Source: a virus
Virus record (IMG/VR): IMGVR_UViG_3300000477_000008
Coordinates: 1 to 28,646 of that record
Strand: one strand, 5' to 3'
Length of the DNA stretch: 28,646 bases
The first letter of the stretch is position 1, and each line of letters opens with the position of its first letter. Below are positions 3,129-18,875 of the stretch, piece by piece. The notes beneath the pieces are model-generated. The model saw nothing but the letters and a program-made list of their open reading frames with translations, had not been told where the DNA came from and searched no databases. A program made the position numbers and the translations under genes.

Positions 3129-3492
3129 CGTCTCCGAATGCTATGTTTCGTTCCAATGCTGCAACAAGTTTGTCAAGACGTTGTCCTTTATCTGTATCTT
3201 CAACCACTTCTGTATAACCCCGTGTTTTCCCTATAGTTCTCAGAACCAGATTAATAGCCCTGAAATCTCCTTCATTAACCATCCTGCTCAATTGTGTTTC
3301 TGCCATATCAATAGTCATTTCGCGTGCTTCTTCTACAACCTGCCTGACTTTTTTAACGGTCTGTGCCCGTCTATATATTGTCCATCTCGCAATACCAAGA
3401 CGCCGGGCTGCAGCTGTCATGTTACCCCGAGAAGCCCATAACGCTTCAATAATTTCTTCATTTGAAACTACACGCCCGGGTAGTCTTGTCAT
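3109..3492 (-). CDS. terS: Terminase small subunit-like DNA-binding protein
   Basis: This 127-residue protein has an N-terminal helix-turn-helix (NEEIIEALWASRGNMTAAARRLGIARWTIYRRA, about residues 11-43). A helical segment follows, with DMAETQLSRMVNEGDFRAINLVLRTIGKTRGY, a pattern common in terminase small subunits, and the tail is acidic (GDDEDDGI). It would recognise the packaging site and load TerL. It lies directly upstream of terL and overlaps it by 20 nt, the usual order. The assignment rests on the HTH, the helical core and the position; TerS families are very diverse. Confidence 0.75.
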   Translation of the reverse strand: MTRLPGRVVSNEEIIEALWASRGNMTAAARRLGIARWTIYRRAQTVKKVRQVVEEAREMTIDMAETQLSRMVNEGDFRAINLVLRTIGKTRGYTEVVEDTDKGQRLDKLVAALERNIAFGDDEDDGI

Positions 3493-3494
3493 TG

Positions 3495-4697
3495 TTATCT
3501 CCTCTTCTTTATCGGTTTCAGATCAAACTTTATGGTGTCTGTATAATCATTATCAAAAACACCCATATCTTTGATGTATGCAAGGGTGGCTCTTTCATCA
3601 TCATATTTCTTTACCATCTTGTATCCTTCATACTCTTCTCTGTTCGTTGTATAATATAAAACATTCCTTAAAAGTGTCGTCTGTTTTGAACTGCAAGGTA
3701 GTGTTCTCAATGGTCTGACATTTGCCATATATTTTCTCAGGAATTTTTCGGCTATTTTGGTGTTAAACATATTATCTAAACTGATATCATAACGTTCATG
3801 ACGCATAGGTGTAAACATTTGATAATCCAGATTGGTAAATTTAACACGGAACGCCCCTGCATTATCATAGATCGGCGGTATCTGTCCAAACAACCCGTCC
3901 CATTCTTCCATAGTATCAAGTCCCGTTATACAGAACAACCTTAACCTGACTTTGCGGCGGGCAGCCCGGAGCATAGCAGCTACAAATTCTGAATCAGTAA
4001 ACGATTTTCCATACTTTTTTCGGCGTTCTTCTGTTGCAAACTCTATTCCTAACCTGTATATCGACCCCTGCCTCAGAGGAGCCTTTAAAAAGTCTTTCAG
4101 CATGATAGATTGTGTTGGTCTCGATAAAAACCCCGCAGAATCGTTTGTTACAATAATACAGTTTGGGTATTGAGTAAGCACCTTGTTTACTCGGGCTGGG
4201 CTATTTGTCTGATACGTATTCGTCCAAGAAGTCACACAAAAACTACACTTATTCTTACACCCCACTGATCCCCAATAATATCGACCTCCTTTACTCACAT
4301 TTGCTACAGGCACGTTTTCCCATTCTATAAGATTCGATGGATGAATAATTTCGTCTTTGCCCTCCCACGTGACGCACTTTAATTCTTTCATTTCATCAAT
4401 AGACTGGCATTTCAGGAGTTCAAATCCCTGACCAATATTTACATAATCCCCAAACAAGAACCAGAGTTTGTAATAGACTGCAGCATGTCCTCCTATCATT
4501 ATGATTTTATTCGGGTATTTGTTCCTCACTTTTTCAGCAAACCCAAGATCATGGACATCACATACTGAAACCAGCAGCATATCTGCATCTTCAGGTTCTA
4601 CGATTTCGTGCCCGTAAAACTTGGCTATATGGGTAAGCACTGATACCGTATACTGGATATGATCCATTTCCGTATTACATAATATTGCGAATTTCAT
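3495..4697 (-). CDS. Radical SAM enzyme with B12-binding-like N-terminal domain
   Basis: The N-terminal ~110 residues read as a cobalamin-binding-type Rossmann fold (ADMLLVSVCDVHDLGFAEKVR, then KIIMIGGHAAVYYKL and GDYVNIGQGFELL). The radical SAM core follows, with GSVGCKNKCSFC giving a CxxxCxxC 4Fe-4S site at about C147, C151 and C154, and then a TIM-barrel-like region to residue 400. Such enzymes cleave SAM to start radical chemistry such as methylthiolation, methylation or ring rearrangement; the substrate is unknown. I see no DxHxxG in the N-terminal domain, so B12 binding is not assured. The frame opens at a TTG (4715), but ATG 4697, after AAGGGT, is the likelier start. It overlaps the ParB-like gene by 23 nt and precedes terS by 2 nt, an unusual place for a metabolic enzyme. 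Confidence 0.8.
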   Translation of the reverse strand: MKFAILCNTEMDHIQYTVSVLTHIAKFYGHEIVEPEDADMLLVSVCDVHDLGFAEKVRNKYPNKIIMIGGHAAVYYKLWFLFGDYVNIGQGFELLKCQSIDEMKELKCVTWEGKDEIIHPSNLIEWENVPVANVSKGGRYYWGSVGCKNKCSFCVTSWTNTYQTNSPARVNKVLTQYPNCIIVTNDSAGFLSRPTQSIMLKDFLKAPLRQGSIYRLGIEFATEERRKKYGKSFTDSEFVAAMLRAARRKVRLRLFCITGLDTMEEWDGLFGQIPPIYDNAGAFRVKFTNLDYQMFTPMRHERYDISLDNMFNTKIAEKFLRKYMANVRPLRTLPCSSKQTTLLRNVLYYTTNREEYEGYKMVKKYDDERATLAYIKDMGVFDNDYTDTIKFDLKPIKKRR

Positions 4698-5349
4698 CGG
4701 CAACCCTTGCAGCAAACTTTTTCATGAGTTCTTTAGCCTTTTCGTTTTCATTAATCCCTTCTTCAAAAAAGACATTAAAATGGTCGCTATCTGTCGTTTT
4801 ATCGTCATATTCAATAGGTTCATCAATATGTTTAAACACAATCAGTTTGCCTATGATTATAGGCATAGATTTTCTGGCGTATTCACCGGACACGGGAGAA
4901 GTCCCTTCAACTTCGTTATGTATCTCGGGGATATCGTCTGCTATACCATACTGATCCCTCATATCTTCGAGCAATTTTTCCACTATCTCGGATTCTAACT
5001 CGACATCTTCCATCAGTTCCCTGAGCGCTTCTTGATCGGCTTCTATCATTGCCCCGATAGGGTCAAAAGTAAGCATAGCTTTATTCTCTTCTTCCTCAGA
5101 AAGATCCACATATTTCACCGGCACGGACTCTTCTTTATTTTTCAAAGCTATTTCGAGCCTTAAATGTCCATCAACAAGATTTCCGGTTCTTTTGTTCACA
5201 ATAATATCCCGAATCCATCCTATTTCGTCAAGCACTCCCGCCATAACGCTTTCTTGATATTCAGGATGTTTCCTCCAATTTTTCGGGTTCGGTTTAAGCT
5301 TCTTTGGCTCAACCGTGCCCGATTCAACGATTCTATTTGAAAAACTCAT
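4675..5349 (-). CDS. ParB-like nuclease-fold protein
   Basis: The N-terminal ~90 residues form a ParB/Srx-like domain: VEPKKLKPNPKNWRKHPEYQ, then LDEIGWIRDIIVNKRTGNLVDGHLRLEIAL, with the LVDGHLR box of this superfamily. A long acidic helical region follows (EEEENKAMLTF, ELMEDVELESEIVEKLLEDM), with an extra C-terminal part of unknown fold. The 224-residue length is short for chromosomal ParB, which carries an HTH; no HTH is evident. Phages often encode such proteins just before terminase genes, where they serve in DNA processing or modification rather than partition. It overlaps the radical SAM gene. A TATA-like promoter lies about 50 nt upstream. Confidence 0.8.
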   Translation of the reverse strand: MSFSNRIVESGTVEPKKLKPNPKNWRKHPEYQESVMAGVLDEIGWIRDIIVNKRTGNLVDGHLRLEIALKNKEESVPVKYVDLSEEEENKAMLTFDPIGAMIEADQEALRELMEDVELESEIVEKLLEDMRDQYGIADDIPEIHNEVEGTSPVSGEYARKSMPIIIGKLIVFKHIDEPIEYDDKTTDSDHFNVFFEEGINENEKAKELMKKFAARVADEIRNIM

Positions 5350-5395
5350 TTTGCGTCACTCATCCTTGCGACTAATCTGTTTTACTTCTGTTTTT

Positions 5396-5408
5396 CTATT
5401 ATATAACC
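5396..5408 (-). promoter_or_regulatory. Candidate archaeal promoter of the packaging/structural unit
   Basis: On the minus strand GATAAGGTTATATAATAG contains a TTATATAA TATA box preceded by an AAG-rich stretch. Transcription would start about 25 nt downstream, near 5373, leaving a short leader before the ParB-like ATG at 5349. It lies in the 65-nt gap and would drive the ParB-radical SAM-terminase-tail genes. Confidence 0.5.
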
Positions 5409-5414
5409 TTATCG

Positions 5415-6029
5415 TCACAATCTGTTCTCTGTTACGAGTTGGAAGTATAACTTATCATCTTTAGAATCATATTTTGCTTTAAGCAGCTTCAACTTTTCGG
5501 TCATAAATTCGATATACCGAATTATGGTCTTTTTACTTTTTCGGTAATTTATCCTTTTAATAATCCACTTAATCAGCGCTTCTTCACTCAATCTACCTCC
5601 ATTTTTGAGTTGTGGATGTGTCATTATCGCCCTGACCACCTTAGCTTTTGGTCTATCGGGTTCGCCCACTTTATCGGTGATAGTTTCATCAAACACCCAT
5701 AATCCTTCATCTTTCAGCAATTGTTCCAGTTCGTTCCAGTTATTAGCATCAAAAAGTTTTGTTTCCCACCCTTCCCCTTCTTTAACTGCAGGACATTCTG
5801 CAATATCATATTCTTGCAGTTTCGGATGATAGCAGGTGATAGAGAATATATCTGGCCGATTCCACTTTATATCCCACCCCCAGTTCCACGATGCGTGCTG
5901 ACATCTTTTGCATGATCTACTTTCGCCATCATACCTGAGTATTACTTTCCTGAACCCGTAATAATTTCTTTCATTTTCCTCACACTCTGCCTCATTTTGT
6001 CTAAAACGACCTGTGGGGTTAGTTTCCAT
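5415..6029 (-). CDS. Hypothetical protein with Cys-rich N-terminal zinc-binding region
   Basis: This 204-residue protein has, near residues 38-80, SCKRCQHASWNWGWDIKW, ITCYHP and AECPAV, a CxxC plus two further Cys that could bind zinc. The C-terminal half is charged and helical, with HPQLKNGGRLSEEALIKWIIKRINYRKSKKTIIRYIEFM, which resembles a winged-helix or HTH-like DNA-binding region. The start METNPTG has AAGGG 7 nt upstream. It follows two mini-ORFs and precedes the ParB-like gene, from which a TATA-like promoter separates it. No enzymatic motif is visible. A regulatory or DNA-binding role is inference. I do not recognise a named family. Confidence 0.65.
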   Translation of the reverse strand: METNPTGRFRQNEAECEENERNYYGFRKVILRYDGESRSCKRCQHASWNWGWDIKWNRPDIFSITCYHPKLQEYDIAECPAVKEGEGWETKLFDANNWNELEQLLKDEGLWVFDETITDKVGEPDRPKAKVVRAIMTHPQLKNGGRLSEEALIKWIIKRINYRKSKKTIIRYIEFMTEKLKLLKAKYDSKDDKLYFQLVTENRL

Positions 6030-6091
6030 ACTGTTTTCCCTTCATTTTGTCTTCCGTTTCCCGATTCGTTAATTTTCTTTTGATTTATCTA

Positions 6092-6211
6092 TCACCGGGG
6101 CATTAGGTTGAATTTTTTGTCGTTCATATTATTTAAAACCCTATGTTGTCTACCCAATCTTAAATAAAATCCTAAATTATCAATCTCTTCTATTTGCTCT
6201 TCTTTTTCCAT
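6092..6211 (-). CDS. Putative 39-residue protein
   Basis: The ORF runs from ATG 6211 to TGA 6092-6094 and encodes an acidic-then-basic peptide starting MEKEEQIEEIDNLGFYLRLG. A GAGGG Shine-Dalgarno sits 6 nt before the ATG, and the ORF begins 1 nt after the stop of the preceding 21-residue ORF. Spacing and ribosome site support translation; the function is unknown. It could be a short regulatory or antagonist protein. Confidence is limited by the size and the lack of a recognisable domain. Confidence 0.45.
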   Translation of the reverse strand: MEKEEQIEEIDNLGFYLRLGRQHRVLNNMNDKKFNLMPR

Positions 6212-6212
6212 T

Positions 6213-6278
6213 TCAATCCCTCGTTGTGTTCGAATTTTTTTCCTCAATTATGCAGACGCCAATCTCAATTCCGTTCAT
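6213..6278 (-). CDS. Putative 21-residue leader peptide or mini-protein
   Basis: The ORF MNGIEIGVCIIEEKNSNTTRD is preceded by a perfect GGAGGT 6 nt from its ATG at 6278, one of the best ribosome-binding sites in the window. It is the first ORF after a strong TATA-like element and lies directly before a 39-residue ORF with its own Shine-Dalgarno site. It may be a leader peptide or a genuine mini-protein; sequence alone cannot separate these. Confidence 0.4.
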   Translation of the reverse strand: MNGIEIGVCIIEEKNSNTTRD

Positions 6279-6336
6279 TCTTTTACCTCCATTCACCATT
6301 TCACCCGATTTTCTCAGACTTCATCAGGACAAAAAC

Positions 6337-6353
6337 ACTATATATATATACAA
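6337..6353 (-). promoter_or_regulatory. Candidate archaeal promoter after the primase-helicase gene
   Basis: The minus strand reads TTTGTATATATATAGTG, an extended TATA box just downstream of the stop of the primase-helicase gene. A start about 25 nt further would fall near 6313, leaving a ~35-nt leader before the first mini-ORF at 6278. It would serve the mini-ORFs and the gene at 5415-6029. Confidence 0.5.
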
Positions 6354-6365
6354 ATTATGACCTAA

Positions 6366-9125
6366 TTATCTCCCCATAATATGCTCCGATTGAGCTATAC
6401 CGCTCAGTTTACCGCGTGATCCGGCATTCCGCATCTGCATAATGCCCCGAATTATCTTCTGGGCATTTTCCGTCTGTATTTTTTGATTTCGTGCCCGGAA
6501 ATTGTATTTTTCAAAATAGCCCCAAATGCTACTTGGTAAAATAACCAGTTTAATTAAGTCGTCCTCACGACCACCTATTGGTGCTACTCTTAAACACATA
6601 TTTATTACTTCATCATACTTTATCCTGTCCATTATATAGTTATACTCTTTCGCTTTCTCATCGTCACCCATATCAACCGCATGTTCACGCATCGCCATGA
6701 AATATGGTGTCTGAAAATCAGAACCCACAATAAACATGATATCATAAAAATCTACATCTAAACCCCTCGATACTACTGAATTCAAATACACGATGTTCGC
6801 ACGACCAGAATGGTGGTTCTCCAATTGTTCATACAAATCCTCATTGCTCGATATTATAGCGCCCGCACCTAAAGTCTGTTTCAAATCCAATTGTTTCTCT
6901 TTTGTGGGTGTCGCTATCAATACAGGTGTTTTTAATCCTCGGCGTTTCCGGTTTTCATTAATGATACCATGCAAAATACGTTTCATCTTGGTCGTGGATG
7001 CTCCTTCTATCACATAAAACACGAAATTGTTTATATAACGGAACGCTTCACAATTCAATATCCTGCAATCCTGCAAATCATGTTGTCTGTGCAAATCATT
7101 GATAAATAATTCTCCTGCCGTCTGGCCTATGATTATCATTTTTTCAAACGGGGTAAATGTAAATATCCGGCGTTCAGGTATGGCAAACAAAGTGCTTCTC
7201 ATTTTCCCGATCCACTGAAACCTACGCAAATGATTATTATAGATAAAGCCGGTGCATAGTTTTTCAATGGTTTCTTTGTGCTGCACCGGAAAACTCATGA
7301 TATAATCGTGTATCTTCTCTACAAGTTTTTCTTTTTGATTAAACTCGATATCATCAAGATATTCTACTGATTCCAGTTCTGCGACCAATCTTGATTTAAG
7401 TTCTTCTTTCTTATAATCTGCAGCACGATTAATATATGTCACCCATTTTATCACGCCATTTATAACCCGAATTATTTGATTATCTCTCTTTTTTGAAGGG
7501 TTTTTGTTGATTTCGGGATCGCTTATCATCGTTTTGAACTCGTTAAGATGTGTTTCGCTTACAGAACCCAACAGAGCCCTCATATTCATGATCCCACGTC
7601 CGATTGTAACTTCAGCAAGTGTTAATTCATTTGGATATAGCCCGGCTATAGTGATATCTTCATCAAGTATTATGAGGGATTGTGGAGGTAATGCTTTATC
7701 AGGCTGTTGTGTTGTTAAAAAATAAGGAACCGCAAAAATAAAATCTACATGATTTCTGGCTGATAATAACCCTTGGTAAGGACATACATTGTAGTTATGC
7801 AGTATATCGCCTGTAAGAATGGGTTCTCTTTCAACCAAATCACGTATAAATTCGTCCAGTTCAGCTTTTGTTTGGTGTATACCGTCCTCTTTATAGACAA
7901 TGTTATACTCACAATCAAAACAATCCTGTTCGAACTTACAGACCTTGTCTTTACCGCCGATATGGGCTGCCGTCTGACCTTCTTCTCTGATATGCTTAAA
8001 TATATTCAGGGCATGTTCCAATACACTATGACGGGCTGATATGAAGGCTCCACTGCGTTCTGTTACAAGATGCGCAACCACTTTGTGGGTTTTTCCTGTT
8101 CTCGGATACGCTTGTATCAGGAGTGCATCACATGACGGCAACTTATCGGGTAGCATAGCAACTTTTTGGATTTCAATATCTCCTGTTGCAACTGGTTTTT
8201 TACCAATTCGGGTGAATTGTGGCGTTTCAAGTCCTTCAAGTTCGCATGCTTCTCTGATTTCATAACCTCTATTCTGCAGGCTACCGGGAACACATTCACC
8301 ACATTCGATATACCCATGTTTCATGAGCAACGCATGAATCCAGTTTCCGCCAGAATTACACCGAAAACAGAACCACACATTTTTGTATGTATCCACAGAA
8401 TAGTTTTTACCGCCTGTAGACCCGTGAACAGGATGCGCACCTTGATATTCGGTTCCTTGTTTTACGGGATTGTCTGGCGGTAAAATGTCCATAATATCGT
8501 GATCACGTGAAAACTGGTCATAATCATATTTAGGAGGTAGTCTGGTCTGTGTAGGATGTAGTTTTTTGCGTAAAGGACTCAATATGGATTCTAATATGTC
8601 AAGATCAAACTCTTTAATATCGGTATCATGAACTACTGTATATGGTATTCCTGATGGATGTATAGATGGTGGTGCAACACAGAACCCTTTTTGTCCTGCA
8701 CCATAAAAATCCCCAATATGGTCGCCGGTGTTTGGGTTGTATAACGGGAATTTCCCGTGCATTTCAGGACATTTGATATAGAAATGGTATTTTTCGCCTT
8801 CTCCTCCTGTTTTCACGGTAAAAGTATCTTCAAAATAGTGTGCAATACCTAACTCTTCAAACACTTCAAACTTGTCTGCATCAAGAATACAATACCCGTT
8901 TACCGGAATAACCCCGATATTGCCTTTTCTTCTAAGATGCCGTTGAATTGTTAAAGAATCATGAGAGAAATTATTTGTTTGGAGATAATTAGCATCAATA
9001 GGATTTTTACCTTTTGGAACCACTCTAATAAACCGGAACCCTTCAAAACAGACTTTTTCAGGGATAGAAAAAACGAAACCTTTATATTCTTTCGTGTCCA
9101 TTATATTATGTGGTGGTTGATCCAT
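6366..9125 (-). CDS. PrimPol fused to XPD/DinG-like Fe-S SF2 helicase
   Basis: This is a 919-residue replication protein; positions below count from a TTG 6 nt upstream, so subtract 2 for the chosen start. A primase-polymerase domain comes first: YCILDADKF (D84/D86), EKYHFYIK (H116) and GDFYGAGQKGFCVAPPSIHPSG. Next is a CHC2-like zinc site (HPVHGS near 233, FCFRC near 254-258). The helicase follows: AYPRTGKT (341-348), four Cys arranged as in XPD/DinG Fe-S domains (C398, C404, C407, and C450 in VCPYQGLLSARNHVDFIFAVPYFL), motif II LDED (489-492), motif V VVSRGLDV (786-793) and a degenerate motif VI. It would prime and unwind DNA at the origin or fork. ATG 9125 has GGAG at 7-nt spacing, whereas the earlier TTG lies too close. 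The upstream neighbour is a PD-(D/E)XK nuclease. Confidence 0.85.
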   Translation of the reverse strand: MDQPPHNIMDTKEYKGFVFSIPEKVCFEGFRFIRVVPKGKNPIDANYLQTNNFSHDSLTIQRHLRRKGNIGVIPVNGYCILDADKFEVFEELGIAHYFEDTFTVKTGGEGEKYHFYIKCPEMHGKFPLYNPNTGDHIGDFYGAGQKGFCVAPPSIHPSGIPYTVVHDTDIKEFDLDILESILSPLRKKLHPTQTRLPPKYDYDQFSRDHDIMDILPPDNPVKQGTEYQGAHPVHGSTGGKNYSVDTYKNVWFCFRCNSGGNWIHALLMKHGYIECGECVPGSLQNRGYEIREACELEGLETPQFTRIGKKPVATGDIEIQKVAMLPDKLPSCDALLIQAYPRTGKTHKVVAHLVTERSGAFISARHSVLEHALNIFKHIREEGQTAAHIGGKDKVCKFEQDCFDCEYNIVYKEDGIHQTKAELDEFIRDLVEREPILTGDILHNYNVCPYQGLLSARNHVDFIFAVPYFLTTQQPDKALPPQSLIILDEDITIAGLYPNELTLAEVTIGRGIMNMRALLGSVSETHLNEFKTMISDPEINKNPSKKRDNQIIRVINGVIKWVTYINRAADYKKEELKSRLVAELESVEYLDDIEFNQKEKLVEKIHDYIMSFPVQHKETIEKLCTGFIYNNHLRRFQWIGKMRSTLFAIPERRIFTFTPFEKMIIIGQTAGELFINDLHRQHDLQDCRILNCEAFRYINNFVFYVIEGASTTKMKRILHGIINENRKRRGLKTPVLIATPTKEKQLDLKQTLGAGAIISSNEDLYEQLENHHSGRANIVYLNSVVSRGLDVDFYDIMFIVGSDFQTPYFMAMREHAVDMGDDEKAKEYNYIMDRIKYDEVINMCLRVAPIGGREDDLIKLVILPSSIWGYFEKYNFRARNQKIQTENAQKIIRGIMQMRNAGSRGKLSGIAQSEHIMGR

Positions 9126-12501: not shown

Positions 12502-12800
12502 GGCAACATCTTATATAAAGGTATGTATCTACCAAAACAAATAATATCAATTTGGCGAGTTCGGGGTTTTACCGCGCGGGACGATTTTCACGATTTCACG
12601 ATTATCACACTGGTTGTTACTATTTCTATGTATCGTTATAACGCTTCAAAGCGCTTCGGAGAACGCTTGAAACTGGCTGAATCGACTGGAAACATGCTTC
12701 TTCTCATGGCAGATCAACACTATGCCTTTGTGTTTATACGTTGAACATCGAAGCGCCATAGAATCGCTGATGTGGGGCTCTCAGTTGAAAACGGCAAAAA
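12502..12800. repeat. Long intergenic direct repeat, copy A
   Basis: About 300 bp related to copy B 374 bp downstream. Shared landmarks are GGCAACATC (12502-12510), a TATATAAAGGTATGTAT element (12513-12529), ACCGCGCGG with an 8-bp palindrome (12571-12579), a 36-bp identical block (12592-12627), TATCGTTATAAC just after it, AACATGCTTCTTCTCA (12691-12706) and ATCGCTGAT (12763-12771). The open frame on the plus strand is not convincing as a gene. The TATA element reads well in both directions. Confidence 0.8.
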
Positions 12801-12875: not shown

Positions 12876-13175
12876 GGCAACATCATATATAAAGGTATGT
12901 ATTCACCAAGAAAAATAATATCAATCTGGCGGTTTCGGTTCTTAACCGCGCGGAACATTTCTTGTGATTTCACGATTATCACACTGGTTGTTACTATTTC
13001 TTTATATCGTTATAACACCTCAAGGGACTTCGGGATGAACTTGGAATCGCTTGAATCGGCTGAAAACATGCTTCTTCTCACGCCGGATCTCGGAAGCCGC
13101 TTATGTTTATACGTTTGGTCAATAAACACTATAGGATCGCTGATATGATGGTCTCAGAACGAATCGACAAAAAAC
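12876..13175. repeat. Long intergenic direct repeat, copy B
   Basis: This is the second copy, in the same orientation: GGCAACATC (12876-12884), ATATATAAAGG (12885-12895), ACCGCGCGG (12945-12953), a 36-bp block identical to copy A (12966-13001), AACATGCTTCTTCTCA and ATCGCTGAT (13135-13143). Divergence is unevenly spread: fully conserved islands sit between poorly conserved stretches, as expected for protein-binding sites or a structured RNA rather than for coding sequence. Confidence 0.8.
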
Positions 13176-13793: not shown

Positions 13794-14023
13794 GATCCAA
13801 CAGGCAGGAAGCCCACGACTTTAGTCGTGGGATGAATGCCGTTAATTTTATATATCTAACAGTCGATACTATTATGTGCAAGGGCACTCCCTCCGGGAGC
13901 AAACGGTTATTATGCACATATCTACGGGCTGCCCTATCAACCAGCCTATCGCACTCCGCTTTGATTCTATTGGGATCAAAGAGATGGAAGGGCAAACCAA
14001 TGACTTTAGTCGTCGGTAGTTGA
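13794..14023 (+). mobile_element. IS200/IS605-like mini-element without transposase (PATE/MITE)
   Basis: The left part has an 8-bp perfect hairpin CCCACGAC-TTTA-GTCGTGGG (13812-13831), preceded by GGAAG and followed by ATGAATGCC, the hallmark end hairpin of IS200/IS605 elements. The right part has CCAATGAC-TTTA-GTCGTCGG (14001-14016 for the loop side), same loop, followed by TAGTTGA. Between them is a nested fold: TATGTGCA (13873-13880) pairs with TGCACATA (13913-13920), enclosing CTCCC/GGGAG. No transposase or tnpB frame remains. TTCAC (13789-13793) flanks the left end and could be the target/TAM side. Boundaries are my estimate, chosen because this 230-bp removal restores the interrupted reading frame. 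Confidence 0.7.
13865..14016 (+). ncRNA. omegaRNA-like structured segment in the mini-element
   Basis: Nested inverted repeats (8-bp stem 13873-13880/13913-13920; inner 5-bp stem 13887-13891/13895-13899) and a terminal hairpin (13997-14016) resemble the scaffold RNAs that overlap the 3' ends of tnpB in IS200/IS605 elements. In those the guide is the sequence after the right end, here the protease gene. No tnpB is present in the window, so any RNA would depend on a protein encoded elsewhere. The RNA itself is not demonstrated. Confidence 0.35.
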
Positions 14024-15037
14024 TCGTGCTGCTGGTTTCCGGGTTAATGCAAAACTCCCGGAATCTCCTCCTTGTAACATCGAAATTCTTGTAAGGAATA
14101 CATGGGAAAATTCTACTACAACACCAAAAGCAAATCCTACACGGATTGTTGCAGAAGTGTCATTAATGGTTGATTCAGTAAACCCGGTTGTTCTACCAGA
14201 TTTTACTACACGCATGCCCCATTCAGGTTCTACAATGTCGTATCCACACGGATAAAACCCGTATTTGGCTAGTTCAGACCCCCGACAACCTATCGAAGTT
14301 TCGCTCGACCCCGCAAAAAATAATCCCACAAAGTTGTGTTCGCGGGGTCGGACATCATCAATAAATTCGTTTACAAACCCGTCACAGGTAGATATAGTGC
14401 CAACGGCAAAATCAATCGTGTTTTCAATATCCGCAACCTTTTCGACACGGGTAGTCCTGCCAAATGCTTCCGCAACCCCGTTCAGGAACTTCACCACCCT
14501 ATCAGCGATATTACAATCGGGCTCGTAATTCACCGGGAACAACTGTTGATGCCAGTAGTAATGACCGATAACATCATTTTCGCCCCCGCCGTCATAACGC
14601 CCGGGTTGTATCCACCGGGTATCTCCATTTTTCTGTTCTTCATGGGTTAGCATGGCATCTTGAGTTCCTACATGAGCATTTGTTCCAATATAGATGTTCC
14701 CGTCATCATCATGGAAAAACCCACCAAGGGTTCCTGCAGAAATATTCCAATGTCCCATTGATACTCCTTTAACAAGGGGACGGTGTCTTCTTGTTCTTAA
14801 TGCACGAACAACCCCGATTTCAACGACATCAGTTTGAACTCCATCTACTATCATTGGAATCAAGTATTTTGGATGTAACAAGTTTCTTGCCACTTTATGT
14901 CTTACATACACCCGGATACATGGAGTTTCTTCATGTGTTTCTCCACCAATTATCTTCGGCATATATTCTTCTGAAATGCCGTTCACATTTGGGTATTTTT
15001 TAAGTTCTGTCCATATTTCTTTGAAATTAGATATCAT
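14006..15037 (-). CDS. Trypsin-fold serine protease, C-terminally interrupted
   Basis: The N-terminal and catalytic parts of a chymotrypsin/Nal1-like protease are present. Counting from an upstream GTG (subtract 3 for the chosen start), the catalytic set is GTNAHV (H125), IDFAVG (D212) and GGDSGS (S329), plus the family motif VKSGRTTGFT (281-290). The chosen start, ATG 15037, has GGAG at 8-nt spacing. The frame ends with a short tail (ALTRKPAARSTTDD) whose last codons and stop come from the mini-element, so the closing beta-strands and helix after the catalytic serine are missing. Such proteases could process virion proteins or act on host factors. The interruption makes activity doubtful unless the element is removed. 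Confidence 0.75.
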   Translation of the reverse strand: MISNFKEIWTELKKYPNVNGISEEYMPKIIGGETHEETPCIRVYVRHKVARNLLHPKYLIPMIVDGVQTDVVEIGVVRALRTRRHRPLVKGVSMGHWNISAGTLGGFFHDDDGNIYIGTNAHVGTQDAMLTHEEQKNGDTRWIQPGRYDGGGENDVIGHYYWHQQLFPVNYEPDCNIADRVVKFLNGVAEAFGRTTRVEKVADIENTIDFAVGTISTCDGFVNEFIDDVRPREHNFVGLFFAGSSETSIGCRGSELAKYGFYPCGYDIVEPEWGMRVVKSGRTTGFTESTINDTSATIRVGFAFGVVVEFSHVFLTRISMLQGGDSGSFALTRKPAARSTTDD

Positions 15038-15042
15038 TTGTA

Positions 15043-15711
15043 TCACTCCTTTATATGGGTTTCAGCTACTTTCGCCCCTGTTCTTGTTAATTTCCATCGC
15101 CTCAACCTATGAGGTTTTTTTGAGGTTGTATGTTTGGGTTTAACATGCTTGAGCATACCAATTAATCGGAATGCTCGAAGTGCATTAGGGGATGTTTTTA
15201 TTCCAACTTGTTCTAAATCTTGAAACATAAATACATTTTCAGTCCCGAACTTCAAATATATTTGGACTAAAACGTCTATATTCTTTTTTCTGGTCAAATA
15301 TCCACCTCTGGCAAAGCCTAATACCCCGTCTACATAAAGATGTTGTCCTTTATCCAAATGTTTGGGAATGTGTTTTGGCCATCGAGCTATACATTTGTAT
15401 GGTTGCAGGTGTTCTGGCACTCGAATGGGTATTCCGTGTCGTCTGAGTGCATAGGTAATGGTTGATTCACCACAACCAATGGTTGCAGCTATATCTCTTG
15501 TTGATCTTCCATCTGTTATATATTCTTCGTATAACCACTGTTTATCTTCCAGTTCTGGTATCTCTTTCCAAGGTTTTCTTACCGGAATACCGAGTTTTTT
15601 CATTAAATTCGATATATAGGGTTGTGATACACTACATTCTTTAGCTATTTCAGAAGTCGTTTTTCTGAGTCCCCAATATGAATCCCACAAATATAACGCC
15701 GATATTCCCAT
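15043..15711 (-). CDS. Two-HTH DNA-binding protein, long paralogue
   Basis: This 222-residue protein has two helix-turn-helix units: TTSEIAKECSVSQPYISNLMKKLGIPVRKP (about residues 18-47) and STRDIAATIGCGESTITYALRRHGIPIRVP (69-98), separated by PELEDKQWLYEEYIT. The C-terminal ~110 residues look like a further winged-helix domain (VLVQIYLKFGTENVFMFQDLEQVGIKTSPNALRAFRLIGMLKHVK...RRWKLTRTGAKVAE). It is probably a transcriptional regulator or a site-binding protein. The first 100 residues align with the next upstream gene, which lacks the C-terminal domain. AGGATG at about 6-nt spacing supports the start. It overlaps the protease gene's upstream GTG region but not the chosen ATG. Confidence 0.75.
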   Translation of the reverse strand: MGISALYLWDSYWGLRKTTSEIAKECSVSQPYISNLMKKLGIPVRKPWKEIPELEDKQWLYEEYITDGRSTRDIAATIGCGESTITYALRRHGIPIRVPEHLQPYKCIARWPKHIPKHLDKGQHLYVDGVLGFARGGYLTRKKNIDVLVQIYLKFGTENVFMFQDLEQVGIKTSPNALRAFRLIGMLKHVKPKHTTSKKPHRLRRWKLTRTGAKVAETHIKE

Positions 15712-17151: not shown

Positions 17152-17639
17152 TTATACCTCCTCCATACTGTTCCCCATTCAGAGAACACCTTAACGAATT
17201 TCTCCGTATTCTGCCCCAAATAAAAAATAGCTGATGGAAACGGTGCAGAATGGTTGTGACCACTAAATTTGAGCCTGCCTTGTATTGCACACCAAGGATA
17301 TTTTGTAAGTAATGCAAACCACCGGGTATCAGTTCTCGCTGGAACCAATACAATCGCTTCTGTCACATTTCCAATGTTGTATTCATAAATTACCTTTTCA
17401 ATCCATTTTTTTATTTCTTTTCCATATGGTGGGTTCATGTAAACCCGTCCATACCAGTTTTGTTCCAATCCGTTGCTCCATTCTGTATAATACATCTTAG
17501 CCGGAACAGGTGCAAGTACTAAAGGTGAACACGGATCGAGATCAATCATTCCCATAACCTGCAACACTGAATCTATCAGTTCTGGTGGGGTTATCCAGTC
17601 TGATTTCTGTGAAGTCATCATACCTTTATGTTTGTTCAT
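17148..17639 (-). CDS. Phage DNA N6-adenine methyltransferase (Dam-like)
   Basis: This 163-residue protein belongs to the phage Dam family: SDWITPPELIDSVL, IDLDPCSP (DLDP at residues 33-36, cofactor-binding strand), TEWSNGLEQNW and YMNPPYGKEIKKWI with the catalytic NPPY at 69-72. The family transfers methyl from SAM to adenine N6, often at GATC, and in viruses protects genomes from host restriction. The length is normal for the family. The ATG overlaps the upstream paralogue gene by 4 nt, and GGAG lies 9 nt away. The target site is not readable from the protein. Confidence 0.9.
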   Translation of the reverse strand: MNKHKGMMTSQKSDWITPPELIDSVLQVMGMIDLDPCSPLVLAPVPAKMYYTEWSNGLEQNWYGRVYMNPPYGKEIKKWIEKVIYEYNIGNVTEAIVLVPARTDTRWFALLTKYPWCAIQGRLKFSGHNHSAPFPSAIFYLGQNTEKFVKVFSEWGTVWRRYK

Positions 17640-18076
17640 ATGTCAATCTCCGCATCATTGATATAATAATCATTTATTTCACGAATAGACGGTTTAAACT
17701 TCAATTTAAAAGATGCGTCATATTCTGCCTGTAATTCAACCGCTCTTTGAAACGCTTCATCACGATTTGAGTGAAACTCTTGTAACTCAGTATAAGCGCT
17801 GATATTGATATCGTGTCCTCTGATAATGGGAATAACAACCACTCTGACACGGTATTCTACTTTTTTACCTTCTGAATGGTGAGCTTTACTTAATACAATG
17901 GTTCTCTTGTATGTTGCTGCATCCAAAAGATACATCTGTTCTTTTATCGCCGTTTTAAACTCTTCAATAGTCCTGATATCATCAATACATCCTTTTAACA
18001 GCGATTCAAGCCGTTTTCTATCGAATTCGTGATAAATTTTATCTCTCGCTGCAGGACTATAATCGGATAGCATCAT
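17636..18076 (-). CDS. Hypothetical protein, paralogue of 18399-18875
   Basis: This 146-residue protein has an N-terminal coiled-coil-like helix (FDRKRLESLLKGCIDDIRTIEEFKTAIKEQMYLL), then VEYRVRVVVIPIIRG, then FQRAVELQAEYDASFKLKFKPSIREINDYYINDAEIDI. It aligns over its whole length with the gene at 18399-18875: (F/Y)DxKR, VEYRV--(V/I)V(I/V)P(I/V)I, a C-terminal RAxxLxxxY/W region, KPxxxE(I/M)xxY and DAEI/DSEI endings. The two flank the NrdD-like gene. The function is unknown; no catalytic motif is seen. It overlaps both neighbours by 4 nt. Confidence 0.75.
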   Translation of the reverse strand: MMLSDYSPAARDKIYHEFDRKRLESLLKGCIDDIRTIEEFKTAIKEQMYLLDAATYKRTIVLSKAHHSEGKKVEYRVRVVVIPIIRGHDINISAYTELQEFHSNRDEAFQRAVELQAEYDASFKLKFKPSIREINDYYINDAEIDI

Positions 18077-18402
18077 GATATTTCGTATCTCCTCCTGTCT
18101 TTAAACTCTTGTTTTTTCGCAACGTTCCATCCACCGCCCTTATCTGAGCCAACGGCGCTTATGTAGCCGGTTATTCTAGAGTACAGTTCTACGTTATGAC
18201 TTTTACAGGGACATACTCTTTCCCCACACACATCACACACATTCATCTCATACGATACTGGCTCGGCGCATGTACAAACTCCATCAGCTTCGCACATTTC
18301 GGTTAAGAAAGTGCTGGATTTGCATACAGGACATGCTCCATCTTCTTCTAAATCGGTATCTGAAATGATTAATAAACAATCTGAACATTTATATCGCGTC
18401 AT
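18073..18402 (-). CDS. Stand-alone NrdD glycyl-radical domain with zinc ribbons
   Basis: This 109-residue protein ends like the C-terminus of anaerobic (class III) ribonucleotide reductase: CDVCGERVCPCKSHNVELYSRITGYI, a gap, then GWNVAKKQEFKDRRRYEIS. The radical-bearing glycine would be G79 in SRITGY, 30 residues from the end, the usual distance in NrdD. C56, C59, C64 and C66 match the zinc site just before it, with somewhat closer spacing. The first ~45 residues hold another CxxC...CxxC (C6, C9, C24, C27), not part of normal NrdD. The catalytic barrel (about 550 residues) is absent. By analogy with YfiD/GrcA it may replace a damaged radical domain of a host or viral NrdD; this is inference. 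It lies between two paralogous genes with 4-nt overlaps. Confidence 0.75.
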   Translation of the reverse strand: MTRYKCSDCLLIISDTDLEEDGACPVCKSSTFLTEMCEADGVCTCAEPVSYEMNVCDVCGERVCPCKSHNVELYSRITGYISAVGSDKGGGWNVAKKQEFKDRRRYEIS

Positions 18403-18875
18403 AATTTAATCTCCGAATCGTAAATATTGTATTTATCCATCTCTTTTTTCGTTGGTTGAAACCGGATTATCCGTGCTGCAAGATGTTGTGACTGCAACCA
18501 TGTTGCCCGTTCAAGTGCAATTGCACGCCCCGGCATCCCGTCTAGATCATGCGAATTAGGGGTTGCTGGATATTCTTCTGATATTTCTGTCCATGCACCA
18601 TCACGATATTCTGTATTACCAATAACGGGAACTACTATTAGATCCACCCTGTATTCGACATGACCGAAATACGATTTACCTTTCCGAACAGTAACCGTTT
18701 TATTATATTCAATACCTTTAATAATATCCAGTTGTTTTTCACATGACCAGATATATGCCCGAATCTGTTCAATATCCTGCCGGGCATTGGTAATATACCC
18801 ATTAATTCGCTTTTGGTCGTATTCACAACATACACGATCAATAGAGTTACGTCCATATTCGTTCCATACTGACAT
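18399..18875 (-). CDS. Hypothetical protein, paralogue of 17636-18076
   Basis: This 158-residue protein shares its layout with 17636-18076: CEYDQKRINGYITNARQDIEQIRAYIWSCEKQLDII (helix), VEYRVDLIVVPVIGNT, GRAIALERATWLQSQHLAARIIRFQPTKKEMDKYNIYDSEIKL. It also has a short loop insertion (PATPNSHDLDGMPG). The conserved VEYRV strand and C-terminal RxxxLxxxx..F.P...E...Y.I.D.EI pattern show common origin. The start is ATG 18875, 4 nt after the upstream stop. Function unknown; the protein may form a complex with its paralogue, which is speculation. Confidence 0.75.
   Translation of the reverse strand: MSVWNEYGRNSIDRVCCEYDQKRINGYITNARQDIEQIRAYIWSCEKQLDIIKGIEYNKTVTVRKGKSYFGHVEYRVDLIVVPVIGNTEYRDGAWTEISEEYPATPNSHDLDGMPGRAIALERATWLQSQHLAARIIRFQPTKKEMDKYNIYDSEIKL

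Follow-up and report, generated by a model that had tools for sequence, protein, structure and literature searches.

Free-standing glycyl-radical domains are known from cells and viruses, namely YfiD (GrcA) of Escherichia coli and Y06I of phage T4, which serve pyruvate formate-lyase (PFL), resemble its C-terminus and replace this domain when it has been lost to oxygen. These two are the only validated spare parts, and the existence of others for further glycyl-radical enzymes is regarded as possible (PMC8683613). In addition, some ribonucleotide reductases (RNRs) are split, that is, one RNR chain is made from two genes, as in NrdJa/NrdJb of Pseudomonas aeruginosa and in the phage proteins NrdA-a/NrdA-b. 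The known split RNRs are of other classes or arise from other breakpoints, from introns, from inteins or from homing endonucleases, and a separate glycyl domain is not described among them in the available parts of two papers (PMC4520616, PMC3653736). No report of free-standing or split glycyl domains of the class III enzyme, NrdD, was found in the literature outside subscription journals.

The protein described here, P0001, consists of 109 amino acids and is encoded in a window of 28,646 nucleotides, which is the whole stretch of DNA analysed (positions 1 to 28,646 of the IMG/VR virus record IMGVR_UViG_3300000477_000008; full length of the linear contig, 30,559 bases, approximately 30.6 kb). 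Like YfiD and Y06I, P0001 is a small free-standing glycyl-radical domain; however, its block is of the NrdD type and is accompanied by zinc ribbons, and a role in replacing oxygen-damaged domains is only proposed for it. A Pfam scan with E-values of up to 1 allowed shows NRDD in P0001 but no Gly_radical domain of the PFL type; the protein is therefore not a GrcA, though its mode of action may be similar. With NrdD (PF13597, TIGR02487) it shares the C-terminal glycyl block, above the Pfam cut-off, whereas it has neither the barrel nor the ATP-cone of that enzyme.

The glycyl-radical domain of P0001

P0001 is a free-standing NrdD glycyl-radical domain, as the original prediction from the sequence had proposed. 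The Pfam NRDD profile matches residues 50-106 with an E-value of 7.1e-8 and 32 bits (cut-off, 26.2), and the match covers profile positions 505-562 of 562, the last 58 positions only, which agrees with the prediction that the barrel is missing. The NCBIfam NrdD model TIGR02487 (E = 1e-7; 30.9 bits, below its cut-off of 326) and PHROG 487, the phage NrdD family (E = 3e-4), also match. Both motifs on which the assignment was based, CPCKSHNVELYSRITGY and GWNVAKKQEFKDRRRY, are present, the glycine is located at position 79, 30 residues from the end, and the similarity is not confined to the Cys positions, the RxTGY and EFKDRRRY blocks being real. The RxTGY loop is followed by the pattern WN..K..E...R, and R76, G79, Y80, N93, K96, E99 and R103 are invariant in an alignment of 36 sequences. 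The ten-stranded catalytic barrel with the active-site cysteines does not occur in P0001, and the search of the whole 30.6-kb record with PF13597 gave no second NRDD match.

Four cysteines precede the loop as foreseen, but they are spaced CxxC-x4-CxC instead of the usual Cx2C...Cx2C, so that C56, C59, C64 and C66 probably, though not surely, form a normal zinc site. The additional N-terminal ribbon is also found, weakly matches a model of the zinc-ribbon RNA polymerase subunit P (E = 0.0014) and is followed by further cysteines at positions 37, 43 and 45 in the N-terminal half. The distance from the glycine to the tryptophan is 13 residues in P0001 and 8 in all of the 72 other free-standing domains (hereafter, solos) and all of the 78 full-length domains compared, and P0001 lacks the Arg-Pro found after GY in almost every other solo. 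The NrdD of phage ICP1 has the same longer Gly-Trp spacing and the same GYIS, so a longer loop is tolerated in natural enzymes. AlphaFold models were of low confidence for the whole protein (mean pLDDT, 63.8) and for the domain alone, and Foldseek with the low-confidence model of the whole protein found no NrdD. The nearest cellular relatives of the domain are the NrdD tails of an archaeal phylum of 29 species (51-56% identity, E = 5e-7), and this phylum also holds the solo-rubrerythrin pairs L207-L209 and L212 described below. In a Thermoplasmatota-like phylum, the NrdD tails alone matched P0001, at about 40% identity.

The gene, its neighbours and the virus record

The frame is intact, as predicted, and begins with an ATG which shares the 4-nt overlap ATGA with the upstream gene; the stop likewise overlaps the downstream gene by 4 nt, and a GGAG-type ribosome-binding site is located ahead of the start (Table 1). 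Both neighbours lack any Pfam or NCBIfam match, and at 26% identity (E = 2e-20) they are paralogous to one another. Consequently, a frameshifted barrel in the adjoining genes, which the original prediction had named as the observation that would speak against it, was not found, and a frameshifted or intein-split nrdD around P0001 was rejected, since the flanking ORFs are unrelated paralogues and only two ORFs of the record exceed 500 aa, a primase-polymerase and a family B DNA polymerase (PolB).

Table 1. Features of the P0001 region (positions in the window) and loci of cellular and viral solos.
Feature	Position or locus	Strand	Basis or gene content
Free-standing NrdD-type glycyl-radical protein P0001, 109 aa	18073..18402	minus	ATG at 18402; Pfam NRDD, TIGR02487, translation
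Glycyl-radical domain proper, residues 50-106	18085..18255	minus	single PF13597 match, whole-record search
Predicted radical glycine G79	18166-18168	minus	
Presumed zinc site, C56-x2-C59-x4-C64-x-C66, before the loop	18205..18237	minus	translation
N-terminal ribbon, Cx2C-x14-Cx2C (C6, C9, C24, C27)	18322..18387	minus	translation
Upstream gene, 158 aa, no assigned function	18399..18875	minus	ORF list
Downstream gene, 146 aa, no assigned function	17636..18076	minus	ORF list
Split NrdD, Elusimicrobia	L111, L119, L158		
Split NrdD, Chloroflexi	L117, L133		
Split NrdD, Micrarchaeota	L102, L141		
Split NrdD, Thermoplasmata	L126, L188		
Split NrdD, Hippea	L154		
Split NrdD, further loci	L017, L050		adjacent catalytic ORF ending before glycyl loop
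Solo in oxygen-defence cluster, Parcubacteria	L124, 5520-8181		Fur family, solo, AhpC/1-Cys peroxiredoxin, 87-aa ORF, rubrerythrin, desulfoferrodoxin
Solo in oxygen-defence cluster, Nanoarchaeia	L138, 5630-7615		Fur family, solo, rubrerythrin, second rubrerythrin-like protein
Solo beside rubrerythrin	L183		solo, rubrerythrin, ferredoxin
Solos beside rubrerythrin	L207, L208, L209, L212		rubrerythrin within ~3 kb; HxlR regulators or Prismane protein beside some

The record encodes a terminase and a PrimPol-type primase (Pfam), and the best-covered phage matches of the family B DNA polymerase are viruses of haloarchaea (about 30%). The repeated intergenic DNA has two TATA-like boxes. The host is likely an archaeon. 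No capsid or portal gene was identified in the 30.6 kb, and since the record is also linear, it is probably an incomplete genome. Close relatives were not found with P0001 alone, its neighbour or the DNA polymerase as the query in the viral contigs searched, a collection which may omit near relatives of the record. No NrdG was detected in the record with TIGR02495 and TIGR02491. The radical-SAM ORF at 3495-4715 was weighed as a candidate activase but discounted, as the models which it weakly resembles are the general Radical_SAM, B12-binding and MiaB-type ones and not NrdG. In the region 3495-5349, this radical-SAM protein with its weak B12-binding match adjoins a ParB-like protein close to the terminase, and tblastn gave no relative of it in the phage collection.

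Other parts of the window have features of their own. A 214-nt direct repeat (12502-12715 and 12876-13089, 80% identical) lies in otherwise gene-poor surroundings and has no Rfam match; each copy carries the box CTTTATATA on the minus strand and a plus-strand ORF, of 98 and 83 aa, which resemble each other. Furthermore, the product of 14006-15046 is protease-like and weakly matches the NARROW LEAF 1 N-terminal domain.

Naturally split NrdD

Scans of viral contigs and genomes gave more than 70 free-standing NrdD glycyl domains in three settings: split NrdD, a full NrdD with an extra solo, and viruses which have the solo gene only. For IMG/VR, the query was an alignment headed by P0001, and 80 loci were examined; an alignment of six sequences which included the tails of phage NrdDs was unsuitable as a query because of its diversity.

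In split NrdD, the catalytic ORF stops after the zinc region just before the glycyl loop, at profile positions 526-540, and the loop is encoded by a gene of 42-90 aa situated 1-163 nt downstream in varying frames, in most cases with its own Shine-Dalgarno sequence. The varied gaps, the differing frames and the Shine-Dalgarno sequences indicate separate genes rather than sequencing errors. At least 16 genomes, belonging to several phyla including Elusimicrobia, Chloroflexi, Patescibacteria, DPANN and Thermoplasmata, have such an organization, as do two viruses, and in a random sample from one Patescibacteria phylum 6 of the 18 NRDD-bearing genomes had a split enzyme. The loop gene usually precedes nrdG, the order being nrdD-solo-nrdG in L102, L126 and L158. 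A glycyl loop is absent from the catalytic chain itself, a strong argument that the loop works from a separate chain. Solos which are one half of a split NrdD, the other possibility raised in the original prediction, thus exist in nature.

Two kinds of irregular nrdD were also encountered. The nrdD matches of Syntrophomonas palmitatica (G068) are in several pieces on two contigs, one of them with a separate C-terminal ORF, and could be due to sequencing errors or to a real split. In addition, NrdD frames of 1500-2150 aa with a fragmented profile match (G350, G352, G353, G361, G061 and G339) look as would be expected of inteins.

Solos beside a full NrdD and oxygen-defence genes

In some genomes, a complete NrdD is accompanied by an additional solo whose subtype agrees with that of the NrdD tail in the same genome. 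In the Thermoplasmatota-like phylum, for example, solos with ITRVTGFFSK..WNKGKTGELKERYR match the NrdD tail subtype VEGITRVTGFFSK..WNKGKLGELKERHR of the same genome, and in two CPR bacteria (L118 and L129) the solo lies between nrdD and nrdG and has an added N-terminal ribbon. Solos distant from nrdD are often found by rubrerythrin and twice in Fur/PerR clusters (Table 1). In one phmmer search, rubrerythrin was near 6 of 18 solos away from nrdD and, among the other NrdD loci, near 1 of 76 (Fisher p = 1.4e-4, a figure inflated by shared ancestry; p = 0.003 without two related loci), and the linkage of solos to oxygen defence is seen in at least four distant lineages. Extra solos by rubrerythrin, peroxiredoxin and Fur/PerR-type regulators are what a spare-part function would predict, and the earlier suggestion of a spare part which restores an oxygen-damaged NrdD gains support from their repeated occurrence beside a full NrdD.

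Solo genes in viruses

Solo ORFs account for about 45 of the best 80 viral matches; most are 41-130 aa long, their typical block is C-EVYSRVVGYLRPVxxWNxGKKQEFKDRKTF, and many solos other than P0001 have no zinc site. Terminase genes are found at most 5 kb from several of these ORFs, and as these terminases are of unrelated kinds, the solo gene is carried by different tailed viruses. In pairs of viral solos preselected at 80% protein identity or more, synonymous and non-synonymous differences were counted at 562 and 221 codons, respectively, which, as a supportive observation, points to purifying selection.

Proposed function of P0001 and alternative explanations

We estimate a probability of approximately 0.7 that P0001 is a trans-acting glycyl-radical cofactor which is charged by the host NrdG and completes or repairs the host NrdD; the formation of the radical, the docking, the partner and host, the repair activity and the benefit to the virus are what we infer from the comparisons described above. 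The host NrdG, a radical-SAM activase, would take a hydrogen from G79, and the charged domain would then dock on a host NrdD barrel that has no glycyl loop, the chain having been cut by oxygen at the glycine or the enzyme being naturally of two chains. The radical would pass to the active-site cysteine and dNTP synthesis would resume. With some 330 bp in place of the roughly 2.5 kb of nrdD plus nrdG, the virus would keep up the dNTP supply during or after exposure to oxygen. Depending on the host, P0001 would either take the place of a cleaved tail, as YfiD does in pyruvate formate-lyase, or provide the smaller chain of a split enzyme.

Alternatively, P0001 might be the small half of a split NrdD wholly encoded by the virus, with the barrel, and perhaps NrdG, on the missing part of the genome. 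This arrangement does exist in viruses: G002 encodes a barrel reaching profile position 537, NrdG and a solo, and G013 (L050) also has a solo and a barrel; moreover, the P0001 record, linear and with no capsid or portal gene identified, is probably incomplete. In G002 and G013, however, solo and barrel are no more than about 2 kb apart, whereas no barrel lies anywhere in the 30.6-kb fragment. Furthermore, G002 and G013 are the only ones among 49 virus records, searched whole, which have both genes, while 46-47 have a single NRDD match (a full NrdD in G043, solo-only in the others) and 20 solo-only records are at least 36 kb long, so this explanation is improbable. The gene order in G013 (3226-6422), where the solo is upstream of a barrel ending at profile position 530, is opposite to that in cells.

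It is quite unlikely that P0001 reuses the glycyl fold as a zinc-ribbon protein, such as a regulator, and has lost the radical. Its eleven cysteines, the extra ribbon with its weak similarity to that of an RNA polymerase subunit, the altered loop length and the low-confidence model would fit such a protein, but the catalytic glycine and its neighbours are retained even in solos without any zinc site, which means that selection acts on the loop, and N-terminal ribbons comparable to that of P0001 occur in stress-linked cellular solos. Viruses commonly manipulate host enzymes and a solo domain is by nature a competitor for NrdG, but a decoy which occupies the host NrdG or the active-site cleft of NrdD and inhibits or redirects host dNTP synthesis is the least likely of these explanations, because dNTPs benefit a DNA virus, the residues for radical chemistry (G79, R76, Y80, W92 and N93) are retained, and cells keep solos by oxygen-defence genes and within the nrdD-nrdG operon.

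Significance

Beyond the trans-acting cofactor proposed for this virus, we are inclined to believe that a two-chain or spare-part organization of class III RNR is widespread and has so far gone unrecognised: a mobile glycyl subunit of 40-110 aa would complete or repair NrdD in trans and would be kept in the oxygen-stress clusters of several anaerobe lineages, and tailed viruses, including that of P0001, would have acquired it on many occasions as a minimal gene for dNTP supply. Spare parts beyond pyruvate formate-lyase were an open possibility in 2021 (PMC8683613), and the solo family makes the question testable for NrdD, the maker of DNA precursors in anaerobes. Natural two-chain NrdDs would offer an exchangeable radical domain for mechanistic work, and the solo gene may be a cheap viral route to influence the dNTP supply of the host.
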